Positions 1 through 10,864 of a stretch of DNA of 10,996 nt are shown here, one piece after another. The position numbers were made by a program, and so were the translations under genes. Origin of the DNA: Candidatus Rokuibacteriota bacterium (GTDB lineage: Bacteria > Methylomirabilota > Methylomirabilia > Rokubacteriales > JACPHL01); NCBI GenBank assembly GCA_016188625.1, contig JACPHL010000247.1, forward strand, positions 1 through 10,996, read 5' to 3'. The stretch's first letter is position 1, and every line of letters starts with the position of its first letter. The notes beneath the pieces are model-generated. The model did not search any database. It worked only from the letters and a program-made list of their open reading frames with translations, and had not been told where the DNA came from.

Positions 1-1282
1 CCTCGCCGGGCGCCGCCAGCCGGCGGGCCTCGGCCACCGCCTCCGCCATCCCCGCGGCCTCGACCACCCGGGTGACCGGGCCCAGCGCGGCCCGGAGCTG
101 GGGCCGCCCCTCGCCGATCAGGACCGCCGCCTTGACCCGGCCGCGCGCTGCCCCGGCCAGGGGCGTGAAGTCCTGCCCCTTGTCCCGGCCGCCGGCGATG
201 AGGACGATCGGCTCCTCGAAGCTCCCGAGGGCCTTGAGCGTCGCGTCCACGTTGGTCCCCTTGGAGTCGTTGTAGAAGGCGACCCCGGCGAGCTCGCGGA
301 CCCACTCGAGGCGGTGGGCCACGCCCCGGAAGGCCCGGATGGCGGCCCGGAGCCGCTCCGGAGGGGTGCCGGCCCAGGCCGCGCAGGCGGTGGCCGCCAG
401 GACGTTCTCGAGGTTGTGCGCGCCTCGCAGGAAGATCTCGCTGACCGGGGCCACGGGCGTCTCGCGGCCGCCGAGGGCCAGGGTGATCCAGCCCTCCCAC
501 ACGAAGGCGCCCTCCGGCACCCGCCCGGTCCGGCTGAAGGCGATCCGCCGCGCCCGGGCCGCGCGGTCGGCGAGGGCGTGCGCCGCGGGGTCGTCGGCGT
601 TCACCACCGCCCAGTCCTCGGCGGTCTGGCGCAGGAAGATCCGGGCCTTGGCGGCGGCATACGCCGCGACGTCGGGGTGGCGGTCGAGGTGATCGGGGGT
701 GAGGTTCAGGAGGGCCGCGACCCGCGGGTGGAAGGTCTCGGTCGTCTCGAGCTGGAAGCTCGAGACCTCGGCCACGACGAGCCCGTCCGGCGGGACGCCG
801 AGGGCCTCGGCCGAGAGCGGGCGGCCGATGTTCCCCCCGACCAGCACCGGGCGGGGCCCCTCCGCCAGGAGCGCCCCCACCAGGGCGGTCGTCGTCGTCT
901 TGCCGTTGGTCCCGGTCACCGCGATGACGTCGGCCTCCATGGCGCGCCAGGCCAGCTCCAGCTCCCCGATCACCGGGACGCCCCGCCGCCGGCAGGCCTC
1001 CAGCGGGTCCAGCTCGGTCGGGACGCCGGGGCTCACCACGACGAGGTCCGCCCCCTCGAAGGCCTCCGGCGGGTGGCCGCCCAGGAAGAGCCGCACGCCC
1101 GCGTGCCCCAGGGCCCGGGCCTCGACCGGGAGGGCCTCGGCCGGCTTGACGTCGGTCCCGGTCACGCGCGCCCCCAGGACGAGCAGCAGGCGCGCGGCCG
1201 CCACCCCGCTCCGGGCCAGCCCGACCACGGTGACCCGCCGCCCCCCCAGCTCCTTCCGCCACGCCTCGCCGCGCGTCGTCAT
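1..1282 (-). CDS. murD: UDP-N-acetylmuramoylalanine--D-glutamate ligase MurD (3' end outside window)
   Basis: Cytoplasmic ligase that adds D-glutamate to UDP-MurNAc-L-Ala using ATP. I translated this frame by hand: the ATG at 1282 opens 427 codons without a stop to the window edge. MurD proteins are usually about 450 residues, so only the C-terminal tip is missing. Visible are an N-terminal Rossmann-like start (VVGLARSG, ~19-26), the P-loop GTNGKTTT (~124-131, Lys 128), SSFQLE, the NLTPDHLDRH metal/catalytic segment, AKARIF with the lysine that is carbamylated in this family, DSKGTN, and GGRDKGQDF in the C-terminal domain. Its ATG overlaps the mraY stop in an ATGA junction, so translation is probably coupled. 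Family assignment is secure. Confidence 0.96.
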   Translation of the reverse strand, partial: MTTRGEAWRKELGGRRVTVVGLARSGVAAARLLLVLGARVTGTDVKPAEALPVEARALGHAGVRLFLGGHPPEAFEGADLVVVSPGVPTELDPLEACRRRGVPVIGELELAWRAMEADVIAVTGTNGKTTTTALVGALLAEGPRPVLVGGNIGRPLSAEALGVPPDGLVVAEVSSFQLETTETFHPRVAALLNLTPDHLDRHPDVAAYAAAKARIFLRQTAEDWAVVNADDPAAHALADRAARARRIAFSRTGRVPEGAFVWEGWITLALGGRETPVAPVSEIFLRGAHNLENVLAATACAAWAGTPPERLRAAIRAFRGVAHRLEWVRELAGVAFYNDSKGTNVDATLKALGSFEEPIVLIAGGRDKGQDFTPLAGAARGRVKAAVLIGEGRPQLRAALGPVTRVVEAAGMAEAVAEARRLAAPGE

Positions 1283-2352
1283 CGGAGCTTCAGGGTCGAG
1301 AGGGCCAGGAGGGCCAGGAGGAAGGAGACGATCCAGAAGCGGATCACGACCTTCGGCTCCGGCCAGCCGCCCAGCTCGAAGTGGTGGTGGAGCGGCGCCA
1401 TCCGGAAGATCCGCTTCCCGGTCAGCCGGAAGCTCGCCACCTGGAGGATGACGGAGCCCGCCTCGATGACGAAGAGCCCGCCGATGAACGGCAGGAGCAG
1501 CTCGGCCTTGGAGAGGACGGCCAGGGTCCCGATCGCCCCGCCCAGGGCCAGCGATCCCACGTCCCCCATGAAGACCTGGGCGGGATAGCAGTTGAACCAG
1601 AGGAAGCCGATGGAGGCCCCGACCAGGGCCCCGCAGAAGACGGTCAGCTCGCCGGCCCCGCGGACCTTCAGGATGAACAGGTACTCGGAGAGCACGGCGT
1701 GGCCGGCCACGTAGGAGAGGGCCGCGAAGGCGACCCCGGCGATGATGATCGGCCCCATGGCCAGACCGTCCAGGCCGTCGGTGAGGTTGACGGCGTTCGA
1801 GGCCGCCACGATCAGGAGCGCGGCGAAGAGGATGTAGACGGCCCCGAGGTCGGGGACCCACCCCTTGACGAAGGGGACCACCAGCCGGGTGGTGGCGCCG
1901 TCCGTCGGGAAGAGGTAGAGGTAGGCCCCGGCGCCGAGGGCGAGGGCGGACTGGGCGGAGAACTTCTCGCGGATCTTCAGGGGGCGTCGCCGGGTCAGCT
2001 TCAGGTAGTCGTCCAGGAACCCGATCGTGCCCAGGCCCGCGGTCACGAGGATCACGACCCAGACGAGACGGTTGCCGAGGTTCCCCCAGAGGAGCGAGGC
2101 GCCGAAGATCGCGGCCAGGATGAGGAGCCCCCCCATGGTCGGGGTCCCGGCCTTGGCCCGATGGGCCGCGGGGCCGTCGGTCCGGATCGTCTCGCCGATC
2201 TGGAGGGCCTTGAGCTTCCGGATGAGCCAGGGCCCCAGGAGGATCGAGATGGCGATCGCCGTGACGGCGGCCATGGCCGTCCGGAAGGTGATGTAGCGGA
2301 AGACGTTGAAGACGATGTGGTACTGGGCGAAAGGGGCGAGGAGGTAGAACAT
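1279..2352 (-). CDS. mraY: Phospho-N-acetylmuramoyl-pentapeptide-transferase MraY
   Basis: Integral membrane enzyme that transfers phospho-MurNAc-pentapeptide from UDP to undecaprenyl phosphate, giving lipid I at the inner face of the cytoplasmic membrane. At 357 residues it has the usual length (~360) and shows many hydrophobic segments. Signature motifs are intact: GFLDDYLK (~111-118, the paired aspartates), NAVNLTDGLDGLA (~186-198), MGDVGS (~262-267, catalytic-site Asp 264) and the MAPLHHHFE loop (~318-326) with three histidines. Its ATG shares one base with the murF stop (TGATG) and its own stop overlaps the murD ATG. Nothing looks broken. Functional assignment follows the conserved motifs and the canonical murF-mraY-murD order. 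Confidence 0.97.
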   Translation of the reverse strand: MFYLLAPFAQYHIVFNVFRYITFRTAMAAVTAIAISILLGPWLIRKLKALQIGETIRTDGPAAHRAKAGTPTMGGLLILAAIFGASLLWGNLGNRLVWVVILVTAGLGTIGFLDDYLKLTRRRPLKIREKFSAQSALALGAGAYLYLFPTDGATTRLVVPFVKGWVPDLGAVYILFAALLIVAASNAVNLTDGLDGLAMGPIIIAGVAFAALSYVAGHAVLSEYLFILKVRGAGELTVFCGALVGASIGFLWFNCYPAQVFMGDVGSLALGGAIGTLAVLSKAELLLPFIGGLFVIEAGSVILQVASFRLTGKRIFRMAPLHHHFELGGWPEPKVVIRFWIVSFLLALLALSTLKLR

Positions 2353-3749
2353 CAGCCATCCCGCCGGGCGAGGAGCGGCAGGAGCCGCTCGATGACCCGC
2401 TCCATCCGCATCCCCCGCGAGCCCTTGACGAGGCAGCGGTCGCCGGGGGCGAGGCGCTCGGCCAGGGCCGCGGCCACGGTCTCGGCCGACTCCAGGGCCC
2501 GGGCGTCCGGGCAGCCGGCGGCCTGCGCCGCCGCGGCCGCCAGGCGGGCCGCCGGCCCCAGGGTCAGCAGGCCGTCAGCCGGCAATCCGGCGACCCAGCG
2601 CCCCGCCTCGCGGTGGGCGGCCTCCGTGTGGGTCCCGAGCTCCAGCATGTCCCCCAGGACGACGAAGACGCGCCCCGGCCCCCCGGCCGCGCGCAGGGTG
2701 TCGAGGGCGGCCCGGACCGAGCCCGGGTTGGCGTTGTAGGTGTCGTCGAGGAGCCGGACCCCGTGGGCGTCCCGCCACTGGAGGCGACCCTTCAAGGGCG
2801 CGACCTTGGCGAGCCCGCGGGCGATGACGGCCGGCGCCAGGCCGAGGGCGAGCCCCACGGCCGCCGCGGCCAGGGCGTTCCCGGCGTTGTGCTCGCCGGC
2901 CAGGGGGAGGTGGACCGGCTGCGCCACCCCGCCGAACCCGATGGAGAACTCGAGGCCGTCGGCGGACGCCACCACGGCGCCGAGGAGGCGGACCTCGGCG
3001 CCCTCGGCGCGGCCGTAGCGCACCACCCGCCCCCGGGCCTCCCGCCCGAGCGCGGCGACCAGCGGGTCATCGGCGTTGAGGACGACCACGCCGTCCGGGC
3101 CGATCGCCTCGACCAGCTCCCCCTTGGCCTTCTGGACCCCCGCGACCGAGCCGAGGGTCTCCAGGTGCGCCGGGGCGATGGTGGTGAGGACCCCCACGGT
3201 GGGCTGGGCGATCCGGCAGAGGGCGGCGATCTCCCCGAAGCCGGACATCCCCATCTCGAGGACCGCGGCCTCGTGGTGCGCCTCCAGTCCCAGGAGGGCC
3301 AGGGGGAGGCCCCAGTGGTTGTTCAGGTTGCCGGGGGCCTTGAAGACGCTCCGCTCCTCGCCGAGGACCGCCGCGATCAGCTCCTTGGTCGTGGTCTTGC
3401 CGTTGGAGCCGGTGACCGCGATCACGGGGAGCCGGCGGCCGCGGCGGTGGTGGGTCGCCAGCCGCTGGAGGGCCGGGGTGGTGTCCTCGACCAGGACGAC
3501 GGGGAAGCCCACCGGGGGGGCGAGCCGTTCGGGGCGGCGGCTGACCACCGCGGCGGCGGCCCCGCGCTCGATCGCCTGGGCCAGGTAGTCATGACCGTCG
3601 TGGCGGGGGCCGCGGATGGCGAAGAAGACCTCCCCCGGCCTGAGGGTCCGGCTGTCGATGGAGACCCCCGTGGCGCTCCGGGCGGCATCCCCCCCGATCA
3701 GGGTGCCCTCGGTGGCGTGGAGGAGGTCGGCCATCGTCCAGTGCGGCAT
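2352..3749 (-). CDS. murF: UDP-N-acetylmuramoyl-tripeptide--D-alanyl-D-alanine ligase MurF
   Basis: Cytoplasmic ligase that adds D-Ala-D-Ala to the UDP-MurNAc-tripeptide, completing the pentapeptide precursor. Length is about 465 residues, normal for the family. Visible are the N-terminal substrate-binding domain (SIDSRTLRPGEVFFAIRG, ~30-47), the P-loop GSNGKTTTKE (~114-123, intact lysine), NLNNHWGLP, LEMGMSGFGEIAAL, the central HLE motif, KGELVEAI, LNADDP, and the C-terminal DDTYNANPGS and LGDMLELG motifs. I place the start at ATG 3749 because GAGGG lies 5 nt upstream. A GTG at 3752 that overlaps the murE TAG by one base would add one residue and cannot be excluded. Its stop overlaps the mraY start. 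Confidence 0.96.
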   Translation of the reverse strand: MPHWTMADLLHATEGTLIGGDAARSATGVSIDSRTLRPGEVFFAIRGPRHDGHDYLAQAIERGAAAAVVSRRPERLAPPVGFPVVLVEDTTPALQRLATHHRRGRRLPVIAVTGSNGKTTTKELIAAVLGEERSVFKAPGNLNNHWGLPLALLGLEAHHEAAVLEMGMSGFGEIAALCRIAQPTVGVLTTIAPAHLETLGSVAGVQKAKGELVEAIGPDGVVVLNADDPLVAALGREARGRVVRYGRAEGAEVRLLGAVVASADGLEFSIGFGGVAQPVHLPLAGEHNAGNALAAAAVGLALGLAPAVIARGLAKVAPLKGRLQWRDAHGVRLLDDTYNANPGSVRAALDTLRAAGGPGRVFVVLGDMLELGTHTEAAHREAGRWVAGLPADGLLTLGPAARLAAAAAQAAGCPDARALESAETVAAALAERLAPGDRCLVKGSRGMRMERVIERLLPLLARRDG

Positions 3750-3751
3750 CA

Positions 3752-5245
3752 CTACCCTCGCATCCTCAGGGCAAGGATCTCCCGGGCCACGGCGCGGTCG
3801 TCGAAGGGGAGCGAGCGGCCGGCGATGAGCTGGTAGGTCTCGTGACCCTTCCCGGCGATGACGACCGTGTCCCCGGGGCGGGCCCAGCCGAGCGCGTCCC
3901 GGATCGCGTCGTATCGCTCAGGCTTCCTAGTATACCCTTGCGCGGGCGGCGCCACTATCCCCTGGACGATCTCCTCGATGATCGCCTCCGGGGGCTCCGA
4001 CCGGGGGTTGTCCGAGGTGACCCAGACCCGGTCCGCGAGCTCCGCCGCGAGCCGGCCCATGATCGGCCGCTTGCCGCGGTCGCGGTCCCCGCCGCAGCCG
4101 AAGACGACGCCGAGCCGGCCGCGGGTCAAGGGCCGGGCGGTCTCGAGGACCCGCCGGAGGGCATCGGGGGTGTGGGCGTAGTCCACGACGACCAGGAACT
4201 CCTGCCCGGCGTCCACCCGCTCGAAGCGGCCCGGCACGGCCGTGACCCCGCCCAGGGCCCGCGCGATCTCCGCGGGGGGGAGGTCGAGCGCCACGCCAAC
4301 CGCCGCGGCGCCGAGGAGGTTCATGACGTTGTGCTCGCCGATCAGGGGGGAGCGGAGCGCCAGCGGCCCCGCGGGGGTCTCGGCCTCCAGGGCGATCCCG
4401 CCGAGGTCCGAGGTGTGGCGAACGGCCCGGATCGTGGCCCCGGGCCCGAGGCCGAAGGTGAGGACCCGGCCGCGGAGCGTCCGCGCCCACGCGGCGCCGA
4501 CCGGGTCGTCGGCGTTCAGGACGGCGACGGGGTCGGGCTTGCCGCCCGCCTCGAGGAGCTCGAAGAGCCGGGCCTTGGCCGCCCGGTAGCGCTCCATGGT
4601 CCCGTGGAGGTCGAGGTGGTCCTGGGTGAGGTTCGTGAAGACCGCCACGTCGAAGGCCACCCCATCGACCCGGTGGAGCTCGAGGGCGTGGGAGGAGACC
4701 TCCATCGCCACTCCCTTGACGCCCGCGGCCACCATCTCGGCGAGCAGGGCCTGGAGCTCGATCGCCTCCGGGGTGGTCTGGCCGGCCGGCCGGCCCGTCC
4801 CCCGGATCAGGTGCTGGATGGTCCCCACGACGCCGGTCGGAAGGCCGCGGGCGCGGAGGAGGGCCTCGACCAGGTAGGAGGTGGTGGTCTCCCCGTTGGT
4901 CCCGGTGATCCCCACCACCGTGAGGGCCAGCGAGGGGTGACCCCAGTAAGCGCTGGCGAGGGGGCCGAGGGCGCGGCGCGTGTCCGGGACCAGGACCCGC
5001 CCCACCATCCGCCCGGGGAGGGGGTCGGGCCCCTCGGCGACCACCGCCACCGCCCCGCGCTCGACCGCCTGCGGGATGAAGCGGTGGCCGTCGGCGCGGA
5101 GGCCGCGGACCGCGACGAAGCAGTCCCCGATCTCGACCTTGCGGGAGTCGTCGGTGAGGCCGTCCACCCGGTCGGGGATCGGCCCGCGGAGGACCCGCTC
5201 GGGGAGCACGGCGAGGAGGTCGATGATGGGGACCTTCCGCCTCAC
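3752..5245 (-). CDS. murE: UDP-N-acetylmuramoyl-tripeptide synthetase MurE, meso-diaminopimelate type, with P-loop Lys replaced by Glu
   Basis: Cytoplasmic ligase that adds the third peptide residue to UDP-MurNAc-L-Ala-D-Glu. The DNPR motif (~411-414, in TSDNPRSEPP) is the known mark of meso-diaminopimelate rather than lysine specificity. The 497 residues contain the usual three domains: N-terminal DDSRKVEIGD (~32-41) and FVAVRGLRADGH, central TTPEA (~156-160), EVSSHAL, NLTQDHLDLH and AAKARLF (carbamylation lysine ~223), then C-terminal DYAHTPDAL, GCGGDRDRGKRP and GKGHETY. One key residue is odd: the P-loop reads GTNGETTT, with a GAG (Glu 119) where the family has an invariant lysine. The rest is full length and conserved. 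The GTG start at 5245 overlaps the ftsI stop in a GTGA junction, with no evident Shine-Dalgarno sequence. The assignment is firm; catalytic competence is uncertain. Confidence 0.95.
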   Translation of the reverse strand: MRRKVPIIDLLAVLPERVLRGPIPDRVDGLTDDSRKVEIGDCFVAVRGLRADGHRFIPQAVERGAVAVVAEGPDPLPGRMVGRVLVPDTRRALGPLASAYWGHPSLALTVVGITGTNGETTTSYLVEALLRARGLPTGVVGTIQHLIRGTGRPAGQTTPEAIELQALLAEMVAAGVKGVAMEVSSHALELHRVDGVAFDVAVFTNLTQDHLDLHGTMERYRAAKARLFELLEAGGKPDPVAVLNADDPVGAAWARTLRGRVLTFGLGPGATIRAVRHTSDLGGIALEAETPAGPLALRSPLIGEHNVMNLLGAAAVGVALDLPPAEIARALGGVTAVPGRFERVDAGQEFLVVVDYAHTPDALRRVLETARPLTRGRLGVVFGCGGDRDRGKRPIMGRLAAELADRVWVTSDNPRSEPPEAIIEEIVQGIVAPPAQGYTRKPERYDAIRDALGWARPGDTVVIAGKGHETYQLIAGRSLPFDDRAVAREILALRMRG

Positions 5246-7206
5246 GGCCGGTGCCCCGAGGGGGCCAGCTCGAGCCGGCAGAGAGTGCCGGGGGTGATCG
5301 GCTCGCCGGGGGCCGGCGTCTGGCGGACGACGAACCCCTTTCCCGCCACGCGAAGCTGGACGTCGTGGACGGCCAGGAGGGCCAGGGCCTCGCGGAGGCT
5401 CCGGCCCCGGAGGTCGGGCATCCGGCCCGGCTCCTCCGGGCCGCCCGGGGACGGACCCGGGTAGGCGGCCGGGACGACCTCGGCGGCGGAGGCCCGGACC
5501 ACCGCGAGCGGGGGGCGGTCCGAGCGCGGGACGCCGAGGTAGTGGAGGACCTGGCGGCCGATGGCGGCGAAGACCGGGGCGGCGGCCTCGCTCCCCCAGG
5601 CCACGGTCTTGGGCTCGTCGAGGAGGACCAGCATGACCAGGCGCGGGTCGTCGGCGGGGACGAACCCCACGAAGGAGAGGACGCCGGGGCGGCGCGAGTA
5701 GGCCCGGACCGCCGGGTCGAGCTTCTGGGCCGTCCCGGTCTTGCCGGCGACCCGGTACCCCTCGATGGCGGCCTTCCGGCCGGTGCCGTCCGCGACGACC
5801 TGGGTGAGGATCTCCGTGAGGCCCCGCGCCGTCCGGGGCGAGAGCACCTGCCGGGCGACCTGGGGCTCGAACCCCGTCACCGGGCGCCCCTGGGGGTCCA
5901 GGACCGCGCGCACGACCTGGGGGACCGGGAGGCGCCCGCCGTTGGCCACGGCGGCGACGGCGGTGACCATCTGCAGCGCGGTCACCGAGACCTCCTGGCC
6001 GATGGACATCGAGGCCAGGGAGAGCCCGGACCAGCGCGTGGACGGGCGCAGCCGGCCGCGGCTCTCCCCCGGCAGCCCGCTCCCGGTCAGGCGCCCGAAG
6101 CCGAAGGCGTCCATGTACTGATAGTACCGCTCCGGCCCGAGGGTGAGCCCGACCTTGATCGCCCCCACGTTGGAGGAGAAGCGCAGGACCTCCTCGAAGG
6201 TGAGCCAGCCGTACCGCCTCCAGTCGTGGATCACCCGGTTGGCGACGGTGATGGCGCCCTCCTCGCCGTAGAAGCGGTCCTCGGGGCGGACGACGCCCTC
6301 CTCCAGGGCCGCGGCGGCCAGGATCACCTTGAAGATCGAGCCGGGCTCGAAGGGGTCGGTGACCGCCCGGTTCCGGCGGACCTCCGGGGGCGCCGCCTGA
6401 TAGGTGTTCGGGTTATAGGTGGGCCGCGCGGCCAGGGCCAGGAGCTCCCCGGTCCGGGGGTCCATGACGACCGCCATCGCCGCCTCGGCGCGGGTCTGCC
6501 GCCAGGCGGCCTCGAGCTCGCGCTCGGCGATGTACTGGATCGTGGCGTCCAGGGTGAGGACGACCCCCTGCCCGGGCCGGGCGGGCTTGAGGATGGTCGG
6601 CTGGGCGGTCACCTCCCGCCCCAGGGCGTCGCGCTCGACGAGGGCGAGCCCGGGCTCGCCGGCGAGGACCCCGTCATAGGCCAGCTCGATCCCCTCGAGC
6701 CCCCGGTTGTCCCACCCCTCGAAGCCGAGGAGATGGGCGGCCAGCTCCCGGTTGGGGTAGAAGCGCAGGGACTCGGGGATGAAGCCGATCCCCGGGAGCC
6801 CGAGGGCGCGGACCGCCTGGCTGAGCTGGGGCGGGACCCTCCGCCGGAGCCAGACGAAGGGCCGGTCGCTCTTGAGGCGCGCGGCCAGCTCCCCCGCGGG
6901 CTCCTCGAGCAGCGGGGCGAGGCGGGCGGCGAGCGCGGCCGGATCGGGGACCCGGCCGGGCAGGGCGTAGATCGACTCGACCTCGCTGGAGACCGCCAGG
7001 ACCTGACCGTGGCGGTCATAGATCGGGCCCCGTCGGGGGCGGAGGGTGATGGTCTTGCTGTGCTGGCGCTCGGCCAGGCGCGCCAGCTCGTCGTGGCGGA
7101 CGAGCTGGAGGTCGGCCAGGCGGAAGACGACGGCGCCGAAGGCGACGGCGAGGAGCCCGGTGAGCAGGAGAGCGCGGACCCTGAGCCGGGACGGGGGCTC
7201 CCTCAT
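5242..7206 (-). CDS. ftsI: Septal peptidoglycan D,D-transpeptidase FtsI (class B PBP, PBP3-like) with C-terminal PASTA domain
   Basis: Membrane-anchored class B penicillin-binding protein that cross-links septal peptidoglycan with FtsW and the FtsQLB complex. The 654 residues contain a short cytoplasmic tail, one membrane anchor (~11-31), the RGPIYDRHG pedestal motif (~59-67) and a dimerisation domain. The transpeptidase domain carries all three active-site motifs: SIFK (~290-293, nucleophile Ser 290), SSN (~344-346) and KTGT (~489-492). After a Pro/Gly-rich linker (~582-594), residues ~595-649 (MPDLRG start, PAPGEPI near the end) look like one PASTA domain. E. coli FtsI lacks this domain; it occurs in SpoVD/PBP2X-type and several deltaproteobacterial-grade proteins. 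The gene lies 13 nt after the ftsL stop with no clear Shine-Dalgarno sequence and overlaps murE by 4 bp. Confidence 0.94.
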   Translation of the reverse strand: MREPPSRLRVRALLLTGLLAVAFGAVVFRLADLQLVRHDELARLAERQHSKTITLRPRRGPIYDRHGQVLAVSSEVESIYALPGRVPDPAALAARLAPLLEEPAGELAARLKSDRPFVWLRRRVPPQLSQAVRALGLPGIGFIPESLRFYPNRELAAHLLGFEGWDNRGLEGIELAYDGVLAGEPGLALVERDALGREVTAQPTILKPARPGQGVVLTLDATIQYIAERELEAAWRQTRAEAAMAVVMDPRTGELLALAARPTYNPNTYQAAPPEVRRNRAVTDPFEPGSIFKVILAAAALEEGVVRPEDRFYGEEGAITVANRVIHDWRRYGWLTFEEVLRFSSNVGAIKVGLTLGPERYYQYMDAFGFGRLTGSGLPGESRGRLRPSTRWSGLSLASMSIGQEVSVTALQMVTAVAAVANGGRLPVPQVVRAVLDPQGRPVTGFEPQVARQVLSPRTARGLTEILTQVVADGTGRKAAIEGYRVAGKTGTAQKLDPAVRAYSRRPGVLSFVGFVPADDPRLVMLVLLDEPKTVAWGSEAAAPVFAAIGRQVLHYLGVPRSDRPPLAVVRASAAEVVPAAYPGPSPGGPEEPGRMPDLRGRSLREALALLAVHDVQLRVAGKGFVVRQTPAPGEPITPGTLCRLELAPSGHRP

Positions 7207-7219
7207 ACTACAAGAGGAG

Positions 7220-7621
7220 CTAGGGGCGTCCGCGCGAGTCGGTCACCAGGCCATCCTCCCAGGCGGTCCGGACCGAGGGCTCCTCGGCCGGGACCGTGAA
7301 CTCCCGGGCCAGCCGCACCTGATCGGGCTCGGGCAGGGTCAGTCCCAGGCGCCGGGCCTTCCGGTCGATGCGCGCCGAGGCCCTGAGGGTGTCGAGCTCG
7401 ATCCGGAGCTTCCGGTTGAACTCCTCGAGGTCCCCCTTGAGCATCCTCAGATCCTCGAGCTCGTAGCTGACGCGCACCCGCTGGACCTGGAGCCAGACGT
7501 AGCCGAGCACCCCGCCGACCAGGACCGCGCCGAGGAGGAGCACGCCGACCATGGCGTAGAGGCGGCGCCGGTCCGGCTCCCGCACCACGCTCGAGGCCTG
7601 GTCCCGGATGACCCGCGTCAT
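7220..7621 (-). CDS. ftsL: Cell division protein FtsL
   Basis: Small bitopic membrane protein of the divisome, known in other bacteria to form the FtsQLB complex that activates FtsWI. The 133 residues show a basic cytoplasmic N-terminus, one hydrophobic membrane segment (~22-45, rich in V, L and G), then a charged region predicted to be helical (~46-90) with leucine-type heptads such as ELEDLRMLKGDLEEFNRKL. A short motif with RRLGL (~90-94) precedes the tail, as in many FtsL/FtsB proteins. FtsL sequences diverge strongly, so the name rests on this topology and on the position between rsmH and ftsI. The ATG overlaps the rsmH TGA (ATGA), implying coupled translation. Confidence 0.85.
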   Translation of the reverse strand: MTRVIRDQASSVVREPDRRRLYAMVGVLLLGAVLVGGVLGYVWLQVQRVRVSYELEDLRMLKGDLEEFNRKLRIELDTLRASARIDRKARRLGLTLPEPDQVRLAREFTVPAEEPSVRTAWEDGLVTDSRGRP

Positions 7622-8514
7622 GCCGCGCGCTCGAGGACCCGGAGCTTGGCGCTCCGGGCGCGGGGGTTGGCCTCGACCTCGGCCCGCGACGGGCCGACGG
7701 GCTTCGGGGTGAGGATGCGCCAGGCGCCTTGAGCGGCCAGCCGCCGGAAGGCGGTCTTGACGAGCCGGTCCTCGAGGGAGTGGAAGCTGATCATCGCGAG
7801 GTGCCCGCCGGGGCCGAGGAGGGCCGCGGCCTGGGGGAGCGCCGCCTCCAGGGCGCCCAGCTCGTCGTTGACGGCGATCCTGAGGGCCTGGAAGGTCCGG
7901 GTGGCTGGGTGGATCCGGCGCGGGCGGCGGCCGGCGGGGATCGCGGCCGCCACCAGCCGGGCCAGGGCGCCGGTGGTGGCGAGGGGGGCGCGGCCGCGGG
8001 CCAGGACGATGCGGCGCGCGATCCGGCGCGCGGCCCGCTCCTCGCCGTACTCCCGGAGGATCCGGACCAGCTCCGGCTCGGGGGTGCGGCGGAGGAGCTC
8101 GGCGGCCGTCCCGGGCCGGGTCGTGTCGTAGCGCATGTCCAACGGCTCGTCGGCCTGGAAGGTGAAGCCGCGCCCCGAGCGCTCGAGCTGGAACGACGAC
8201 AGCCCCAGGTCGAAGAGGATCCCGTCAACCATCTCGATCCCCAGGGCCCGGGCCTCCCGCGCGAGGTCGCGGAAGTCGGCCTGACGGAGCAGGACGCGAT
8301 CGCCGAAGATGCCGAGGCGCTGGCGGGCGACGGCGAGCGTGGCGGCGTCCCGGTCGAAGCCGACCACGCGGGCCGCGGGGCTCGCGGCGAGGATCGCCTC
8401 GGCGTGGCCGCCCGGGCCGACCGTGGCGTCCACGAAGAGCCCGCCCCGCTCGGGCGCAAGGTGGCGCAGCACCTCGGCCAGGAGCACCGGGCGGTGGAGC
8501 GCCCCGGCCCCCAT
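7618..8514 (-). CDS. rsmH: 16S rRNA (cytosine(1402)-N(4))-methyltransferase RsmH (MraW)
   Basis: SAM-dependent methyltransferase that modifies C1402 of 16S rRNA at the ribosomal P site. The 298-residue product has the family signatures: HRPVLLAEVL at the N-terminus, the SAM-binding VDATVGPGGHAEAIL (~28-42), FDRD (~53-56), DLGLSSFQL (~102-110), the RGFTF and LDMRYD segment, RRIHPATRTFQALRIAVNDEL, SFHSLEDR (~243-250) and an RSAKLRVLER tail. I chose ATG 8514 because the product then begins just before the conserved HxPVLL segment and lies 2 nt after the mraZ stop. The frame stays open upstream to 9045, but that stretch overlaps mraZ and encodes no family sequence. Length matches the usual ~300. 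Confidence 0.96.
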   Translation of the reverse strand: MGAGALHRPVLLAEVLRHLAPERGGLFVDATVGPGGHAEAILAASPAARVVGFDRDAATLAVARQRLGIFGDRVLLRQADFRDLAREARALGIEMVDGILFDLGLSSFQLERSGRGFTFQADEPLDMRYDTTRPGTAAELLRRTPEPELVRILREYGEERAARRIARRIVLARGRAPLATTGALARLVAAAIPAGRRPRRIHPATRTFQALRIAVNDELGALEAALPQAAALLGPGGHLAMISFHSLEDRLVKTAFRRLAAQGAWRILTPKPVGPSRAEVEANPRARSAKLRVLERAA

Positions 8515-8516
8515 CG

Positions 8517-8957
8517 CTAGAGACCGAGCGCCCCCAGCTTCTCGGCGATCTGCTCGAAGGTCCCACCGTGGCGCTGGTAGAAGTCGGCCCACCGCTCGCG
8601 GCCCCAGATCTCGAACCGATCCAGGGTCCCCACGAGGACGACCTCCTTGACGAGCCCGGCGAACTCCCGGTGCTCGGGGGCCAGCAGGATCCGGCCCGCC
8701 CGGTCCACCGGGCACTCCTTGGCGCTGGAGGCGAAGATGCGGAGGAAGTTTCGCATCTCGGCGGTGAGCTGGGGGCGGCGCCGGAGCTCCCCGACGAAGC
8801 GCTCCCACTCCCGCTTGGGGTAGGCCCAGAGACAGCTGTCCGCCTCGACGGCGATCAGGGTGTCCTCGTCGTGCTCGGCCAGGGCCTCCCGGAACTTCGC
8901 CGGGATGCTCAGGCGCCCCTTCGGGTCGATGGTGTGGAAGTACCGCCCCTGGAACAC
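8517..8957 (-). CDS. mraZ: Transcriptional regulator MraZ
   Basis: DNA-binding protein with two SpoVT/AbrB-like (MraZ) domains that in E. coli and Mycoplasma controls the dcw operon, including its own promoter. The first domain contains GRYFHTIDPKGRLSIPAKFR; the second contains the matching CPVDRAGRILLAPEHREFAGL. MraZ forms ring-shaped oligomers in other species. I choose GTG 8957 as start because it gives the family's usual MFxG opening and a length of 146 residues, with a GGAGG (8969-8973) 11 nt upstream. A GTG at 8969 would add four residues (MRGA) but has the GGAGG running into the start codon. The gene is first in the operon and sits just downstream of tandem repeats matching the known MraZ operator. 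Confidence 0.95.
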   Translation of the reverse strand: MFQGRYFHTIDPKGRLSIPAKFREALAEHDEDTLIAVEADSCLWAYPKREWERFVGELRRRPQLTAEMRNFLRIFASSAKECPVDRAGRILLAPEHREFAGLVKEVVLVGTLDRFEIWGRERWADFYQRHGGTFEQIAEKLGALGL

Positions 8958-8990
8958 CGCTCCGCGCACCTCCAGGGCTGAACAAAGACA

Positions 8991-9106: not shown

Positions 9107-9129
9107 AACCGGTGGTAGGCGACCCGGTT
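9107..9129. other. Small inverted repeat between the 9129-9575 gene and the dcw promoter
   Basis: AACCGG (9107-9112) and CCGGTT (9124-9129) are perfect 6-bp arms around an 11-nt loop, beginning at the stop of the upstream gene. On the minus strand a T-rich stretch follows only some 30 nt later, so this is at best a weak or imperfect terminator. It may be chance in GC-rich DNA. Confidence 0.25.
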
Positions 9130-9575
9130 CAGGAGTACCGCCGGTAGAGGTCCAGCAACCGATTCAGGTGACGGCCTTCATCCCCGACCAGGGTGACGAG
9201 GGGCGGGAGGACGGCGGGGTCGGGGAGGAGCGCGACGAGGTCGCGGTAGCCGGCCAGGAGGCTCCGCTCGGCCTGGAAGACCCGGGAGTACAGATCGCCG
9301 CGGCTCCCGGTCCCCGGGCCGGCCGCCGACGCGGGAGGCGGCGGGTGTCCGCCGAGCGCGACGATCAGCGCGGCGACGCGGGCGCCGTGGGCCTCGGTCT
9401 CGCGGGCCAGCTCGGCGACCAGCTCGACGGGCGCCGTCGGCGGGAGGCTCGAGGCCAGCCGGTCGTAGAGGGCGGCCAGCTCGCGCTCGAGCCCGAGGGC
9501 CTCGCCCAGGCCCTCCAGCAGAATGAGGCGGCGACCGCGGGGGAGGCTCGAGAGATCAGGGTGAGTCTCGTCCAT
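9129..9575 (-). CDS. Small helical protein, possibly ferritin-like
   Basis: A 148-residue, acidic, Ala/Leu-rich protein with no signal peptide or membrane segment. I do not recognise it with certainty. The sequence suggests four helices: ~14-43 (LGLERELAALYDRLAS), ~48-75 (ELARETEAHGARVAALI), ~94-118 (FQAERSLLAGYRDLVALL) and ~123-146 (GDEGRHLNRLLDLYRRY), with a Pro/Gly loop in the middle. Helical Glu/His residues (E32, E59, E61, H63, E103, E133, H136) and the ExxH in the last helix recall ferritin-like di-iron bundles. The second helix lacks the standard ExxH spacing, so metal binding is unproven. It lies on the same strand as the dcw operon but ends before that operon's promoter. No clear Shine-Dalgarno sequence precedes ATG 9575. 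Confidence 0.7.
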   Translation of the reverse strand: MDETHPDLSSLPRGRRLILLEGLGEALGLERELAALYDRLASSLPPTAPVELVAELARETEAHGARVAALIVALGGHPPPPASAAGPGTGSRGDLYSRVFQAERSLLAGYRDLVALLPDPAVLPPLVTLVGDEGRHLNRLLDLYRRYS

Positions 9576-9654: not shown

Positions 9655-9828
9655 CTACTCGTCCCTGATGGCCGCCTTCACCTTCTCGGCCAGCTCGGGC
9701 GGGATCGTGGTCATCCCGTGAACGGCGTTGGCGTGGACCCCCGCCTGCTGCATGATCTCCTCGACGGTGGCCCCGCGGGCCACCCAGTCACAGTTGGGGC
9801 CGACATCCCGACAGCGAAGGACCTTCAT
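9655..9828 (-). CDS. DUF1059 domain small protein
   Basis: A 57-residue cytoplasmic protein matching the DUF1059 family in length and pattern: an N-terminal KVLRCRDVGPNCDW, a central VARGATVEEIMQQAGVHANAVHGM and a C-terminal PPELAEKVKAAIRDE. Function of the family is not established. Two cysteines (C6, C13) and two histidines (H32, H37) are the obvious candidates for a metal site; that is inference. The start at ATG 9828 is well supported by GGGAGG (9834-9839) 5 nt upstream. The frame is open further upstream, but that stretch runs into the araC-type gene and does not resemble the family. It is followed by a 12-bp hairpin and may be a single-gene unit. Confidence 0.85.
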   Translation of the reverse strand: MKVLRCRDVGPNCDWVARGATVEEIMQQAGVHANAVHGMTTIPPELAEKVKAAIRDE

Positions 9829-9833
9829 CACGA

Positions 9834-9852
9834 CCTCCCTTCTGCAAAAGGG
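9834..9852 (-). promoter_or_regulatory. Strong Shine-Dalgarno sequence of the DUF1059 gene, partly within a small hairpin
   Basis: GGGAGG (9834-9839) sits 5 nt before the ATG, the best ribosome binding site in the window and unlike the nearly absent ones in the dcw genes. Its first three bases belong to a 5-bp inverted repeat (CCCTT 9837-9841 with AAGGG 9848-9852, 6-nt loop), which could modestly mask the site. The hairpin is small and may be chance. Confidence 0.6.
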
Positions 9853-9916
9853 TTTGCGGCCACGGCCACCCGGATCGGAGGCGCACCCTCTATGCTCACC
9901 CCCGCGCCGGGATGAG

Positions 9917-10864
9917 TCAAGCAAGCTCGCCCGAGGAGAGCCCCCATGCCGGTGCCATCGCTTCGACGGGCACCTTGCGGAACTCCGCCGGGGACCGGCC
10001 GAACTGATCCCGGAACGCGCGCGAGAAGTGGCTGCGGCTGGCGAAGCCCACGCGGCTCGCGATGGCGTCCACGGACAGCTCACCGCTGTGCAGCATCTGT
10101 GCGGCCTGCCGGAGCCGCGTGTCGCGGACAAAGTCCATCGGCGTCCTGCCGAAGCTCTCGCGGAAGCGCGCTGCGAAGACCGAGCGGCTCATGTGGCCGA
10201 GTTCCGCGAGCGACTCGAGGGAGTGCGGCCGCTCGGGGCGCGAGAGGATCGCGTCCACCACAGGGATCATCCGCTGATCGTCCATGGCCGACAGCCACGG
10301 CAGTCGGCAGTCGGCATGTTTGCTCAGGCGCCTGAAGACCAGGATCAGGCACTGGTGCATCAGCGCGGCCATCATGGCGCGGCTCCCGGGCGCCGGGGCC
10401 TGTTGCTCCCGCAGCAGCCCCTCGAAGGTAGCGCGCATCTGGGGTGAGTCGGAGAAATCGAGGGTGATGACTTCGCGCAGAAGATCGAAGAGGCCGAGGT
10501 TGCCGCCATAGGTGACCCGGATGCGGCCGCAGGCCGCCATCAGCTCCGAGTGACCGGCCGGCCCTGCGGTGAGTTTCTGTAACCCCGGCACGGCCTCCCC
10601 CTCGCCCGGCGCCGCGGCCTTGAGGCGAACCTCGCGACCGCACTCGAGGGCGTGAGTCAGGCGCGGGGGGACGATCGCCAGGGTGTAGCGCCCCAGACGC
10701 TGCGCCTTCCCGTCGACCCGCAAGGTGCCCTCACCCTGGAGCACGTAGTGCAGGGTGACCCACTCGAGGGCGGGGAGCGGGAGCCTCCAGCCCTTCGCCA
10801 CCCCGCACACGGAGAACGGCTCGACCGTCACCGCCAGGTTCTCGAACAGCCGTTCGATCAGCAC
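9917..10864 (-). CDS. AraC-family transcriptional regulator
   Basis: A 315-residue regulator with an N-terminal cupin-like sensor domain and a C-terminal AraC/XylS DNA-binding domain. The sensor part has the small-ligand cupin pattern (LHYVLQGEGTLRV, ~38-50; YTLAIVPPRLTHAL, ~60-73), as in AraC proteins of the Cupin_6 type. The DNA-binding part has two helix-turn-helix units: ~214-240 (SLESLAELGHMSRSVFAARF) and ~264-296, the latter with the diagnostic VGFASRSHFSRAFRDQFGRSPAEFR. The start is taken as GTG 10864, the only candidate after an in-frame stop at 10898-10900; no Shine-Dalgarno sequence is seen. Its ligand and targets cannot be told from the sequence. A DUF1059 gene lies 88 bp downstream on the same strand. 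Direct repeats upstream may be its binding sites. Confidence 0.93.
   Translation of the reverse strand: MLIERLFENLAVTVEPFSVCGVAKGWRLPLPALEWVTLHYVLQGEGTLRVDGKAQRLGRYTLAIVPPRLTHALECGREVRLKAAAPGEGEAVPGLQKLTAGPAGHSELMAACGRIRVTYGGNLGLFDLLREVITLDFSDSPQMRATFEGLLREQQAPAPGSRAMMAALMHQCLILVFRRLSKHADCRLPWLSAMDDQRMIPVVDAILSRPERPHSLESLAELGHMSRSVFAARFRESFGRTPMDFVRDTRLRQAAQMLHSGELSVDAIASRVGFASRSHFSRAFRDQFGRSPAEFRKVPVEAMAPAWGLSSGELA

Follow-up and report, generated by a model that had tools for sequence, protein, structure and literature searches.

MurE, an essential enzyme, belongs to the Mur ligases, a family whose P-loop is characterised by a lysine (GxxGK[T/S]). When this structural lysine was changed in MurT (Lys59Ala), as well as in the equivalent mutant of MurC, activity was abolished (PMC6085368), and in a review Lys157 is indicated as the most essential active-site residue of Mycobacterium tuberculosis MurE (PMC10058398). 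Another lysine, the one in the AAKARLF motif, is carbamylated in Mur ligases (PMC3060825). The murE gene described here, assembled from a Candidatus Rokuibacteriota bacterium, encodes a glutamate at position 119, where its relatives have the P-loop lysine. The resemblance to the MurT and MurC mutants lies in the change of the same structural lysine; those, however, are inactive laboratory proteins from other members of the family (PMC6085368), whereas the glutamate was found in an assembled environmental genome. A glutamate at this position is expected to inactivate MurE and, since mutation of the lysine kills the activity of both MurC and MurT, its long-standing presence in the enzyme appears implausible.

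The gene lies in a window of 10,996 nucleotides, the whole stretch of DNA that was analysed, and is part of an ordinary mraZ-rsmH-ftsL-ftsI-murE-murF-mraY-murD cluster (Table 1). From the point of view of sequence families, the protein is a typical MurE: it scores 529 bits against NF001126 (cut-off 373) and 512 bits against TIGR01085 (cut-off 257.3), all three Mur ligase domains (PF01225, PF08245, and PF02875) are above cut-off, and solved MurE structures (for example 2wtz, 1e8c, and 4bub) are matched over nearly its whole length. The likeness to the MurE family represented by TIGR01085 and NF001126 thus comprises a full-length match, the three domains, the DNPR and carbamylated-lysine motifs and the mra/mur neighbourhood, while the difference is confined to Glu119 in the place of the P-loop lysine. 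A motif check over the whole protein bore out the claim of an earlier sequence-only reading that every other MurE motif is intact; in addition to those listed in Table 1, EVSSHALE, NLTQDHLD, GEHNVMNLL, VDYAHTPDAL, GCGGDRDRGKR, and GKGHETYQ are all preserved. The possibility that murE is a pseudogene was rejected, the reading frame being open and no further motif lost. Moreover, the identity of MurE to its counterpart in the nearest relative (genome G003) is 75%, in line with the values obtained for MraY (75%), MurD (74%), and FtsI (69%). Since this value is typical of the cluster and the other motifs are intact, the gene is neither decaying nor evolving unusually.

Table 1. Features of the window, with positions counted from its first nucleotide.
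Feature	Position	Strand	Remarks
murD	2..1276	-	P-loop Lys present; runs off the contig end, start approximate
mraY	1279..2352	-	TIGR00445
murF	2352..3752	-	P-loop Lys present; profile match
murE, UDP-MurNAc-tripeptide synthetase (meso-DAP type, DNPR motif), 497 aa	3752..5245	-	NCBIfam and Pfam
TSDNPRSE, meso-DAP specificity motif of murE	3995..4018	-	intact
AAKARLF motif of murE, holding the lysine carbamylated in Mur ligases	4562..4582	-	intact
murE P-loop	4880..4903	-	GTNGETTT, residues 115-122
murE codon 119	4889..4891	-	GAG (Glu); AAG/AAA (Lys) in relatives
ftsI-type penicillin-binding protein	5242..7206	-	profile match
ftsL-like	7220..7621	-	match under the curated cut-off
rsmH (mraW)	7618..8565	-	TIGR00006
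mraZ	8517..8969	-	TIGR00242
148-aa ORF upstream of mraZ	9129..9575	-	no Pfam or NCBIfam match
ORF with DUF1059	9655..10131	-	DUF1059 in the C-terminal 57 aa
AraC-type regulator	9917..10864		adjoins the DUF1059 ORF

At codon 119 (window positions 4891-4889) the assembled sequence reads GAG on the minus strand, corresponding to CTC on the plus strand; the coding-strand context is GGGACCAACGGGGAGACCACCACC, which translates to GTNGETTT. Re-reading of the open reading frame (5245..3752, minus strand) therefore agrees with the P-loop and the codon as first reported, and the same holds for the observations that MurF (GSNGKTTT) and MurD (GTNGKTTT) of the same window keep the lysine and that a single A to G change (AAG to GAG) separates Glu119 from a lysine codon. 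The assembled murE accordingly lacks the P-loop lysine by which the family is recognised. A mistake in the frame or in the alignment was ruled out: the codon is unambiguous and falls in a lysine column, so that Glu119 is real in the assembled sequence.

The invariance of the lysine, which had been put forward from the single sequence, was confirmed among the relatives. Near full-length MurE proteins from 52 other genomes of the same order were aligned together with two MurE-like paralogs, and lysine occupies the column of codon 119 in all 54 of these sequences, i.e., in 52 of 52 orthologs and in both paralogs. Among the MurE columns with at most one other exception in this alignment, Glu119 is the sole departure shown by the protein of the window; its departures at other near-invariant columns are Y145H, F213L, and G475A. 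At a wider scale, 95 genomes belonging to the phylum were compared: 84 contain a DNA pattern for G-x-T-G-T-N-G-K-T-T, and the corresponding pattern with glutamate is present only in the genome under study. When 84,980 bacterial and archaeal species genomes were scanned, a collection that may leave out records of this same genome, the glutamate pattern matched one locus, on an Acidimicrobiaceae contig, whose translation reads as a PrpF-like protein unrelated to Mur ligases. A recurrent change from lysine to glutamate in other Mur ligases was consequently discarded. Thus, no other Mur ligase with the glutamate pattern occurs among the 95 phylum genomes or the 84,980 species genomes, within the limits of a pattern that allows nearly any codon and keeps the flanking residues fixed, so that variants with other neighbours escape it.

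These data bear on the idea that the organism belongs to a lineage whose ATP site has been remodelled, so that Glu119 would be functional and the role of the lysine would be taken over by another cation or basic residue. Its own family is represented by one genome and is therefore uncheckable, which leaves some room for such a lineage; nevertheless, no compensating change can be recognised, as Y145H, F213L, and G475A add no basic residue other than His145, no scanned genome offers a second Mur ligase with the glutamate pattern, and a glutamate would place a negative charge beside the phosphates of ATP. On these grounds a remodelled site is very improbable. A lineage-wide substitution likewise finds no support outside the organism's own family, lysine being present in the nearest relative (G003, from another family of the same order, with about 75% identity in MurE) and in the rest of the order, and a lineage-wide altered ATP site is unsupported. 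Four options had initially been listed for the glutamate; the finding that all relatives carry lysine favours an error or an isolated variant, while the option of an altered lineage loses ground, no relative with glutamate having been found in the order or phylum.

A further option was a second murE elsewhere in the genome, so that the change would be real and tolerated because another MurE, encoded by a divergent paralog or within the 16% of the genome that the assembly lacks, does the work. The genome (G000) consists of 2.6 Mb in 344 contigs and is 84% complete. Protein and DNA searches of this assembly found no second murE, and the Mur ligases retrieved were MurE, MurF, MurD, and, on contig 43, MurC; the suggestion was thus not borne out at this level of completeness. 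The missing second gene is weak evidence, because the same genome, despite its completeness rating, gave no match for rpoB or rpoC either. Among the 36 good genomes of the order, 5 likewise have no match for rpoB, so assembly or binning may frequently drop the rpoBC region. In two relatives (G018, L058 41-1555; G036, L059) there is in fact a second MurE-like gene, 42-44% identical and with the P-loop lysine intact, which gives the idea a precedent; in both cases the P-loop reads GTEGKTTT and the gene lies away from the mur cluster, on another contig. Further damage would, on the other hand, be expected in a gene no longer under selection, and murE shows none. Taking these points together with the incomplete assembly, a hidden second MurE has only a slight chance of being the explanation.

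In our opinion, Glu119 is probably a sequencing or consensus error of the draft assembly. This explanation is preferred because the change is isolated and hits a critical residue, the gene is otherwise intact and essential, the assembly is a draft, and the relatives are all normal. The sequence context is consistent with it, as on the coding strand the A to G change directly follows GGG. In HiSeq data no 3-mer precedes substitution errors more often than GGG, which also ranks among the top two in GAII data; a preferential incorporation of G has been reported as well (PMC4787001). The platform was presumably Illumina, and an AAG codon may have been read or called as GAG straight after GGG. If so, the MurE of this organism would be an ordinary meso-DAP-adding Mur ligase endowed with its P-loop lysine.

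The main rival to an error is a recent, isolated and real mutation. The sampled cells, or some of their population, would then have Glu119 and make a MurE that works poorly or is inactive; either the consensus captured a harmful variant, or the cells were dying or dormant. A single transition in an otherwise intact gene is what a very recent mutation would look like, and the assembly bears no sign of an excess of errors: across the cluster, the window departs from about 56 of 1137 columns invariant in 10 relatives, versus 79 of 1160 for G003, although this test is unable to detect one single wrong base. As odd residues are not in excess at invariant columns, the contig is not visibly error-rich, and the idea of an error-rich assembly was rejected as far as this cluster shows. 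Against a real mutation, neither MurC nor MurT can do without this lysine (PMC6085368) and MurE is essential, so that a Glu119 variant should be rare and short-lived; moreover, a consensus assembly normally gives the majority base. An isolated mutation is therefore unlikely, and an error in the assembled sequence is still to be preferred.

More generally, an odd single base at a catalytic site of a draft environmental genome should be backed by reads before any interpretation is built on it. It is highly doubtful that the bacterial family of which this genome is the single representative here makes peptidoglycan with a MurE having glutamate in its P-loop. If the glutamate were real and the enzyme working, a strong rule on how Mur ligases hold ATP would be broken, and a functional MurE of this kind would be a case in nature of a Mur ligase doing without a residue on which the members of the family tested so far depend.
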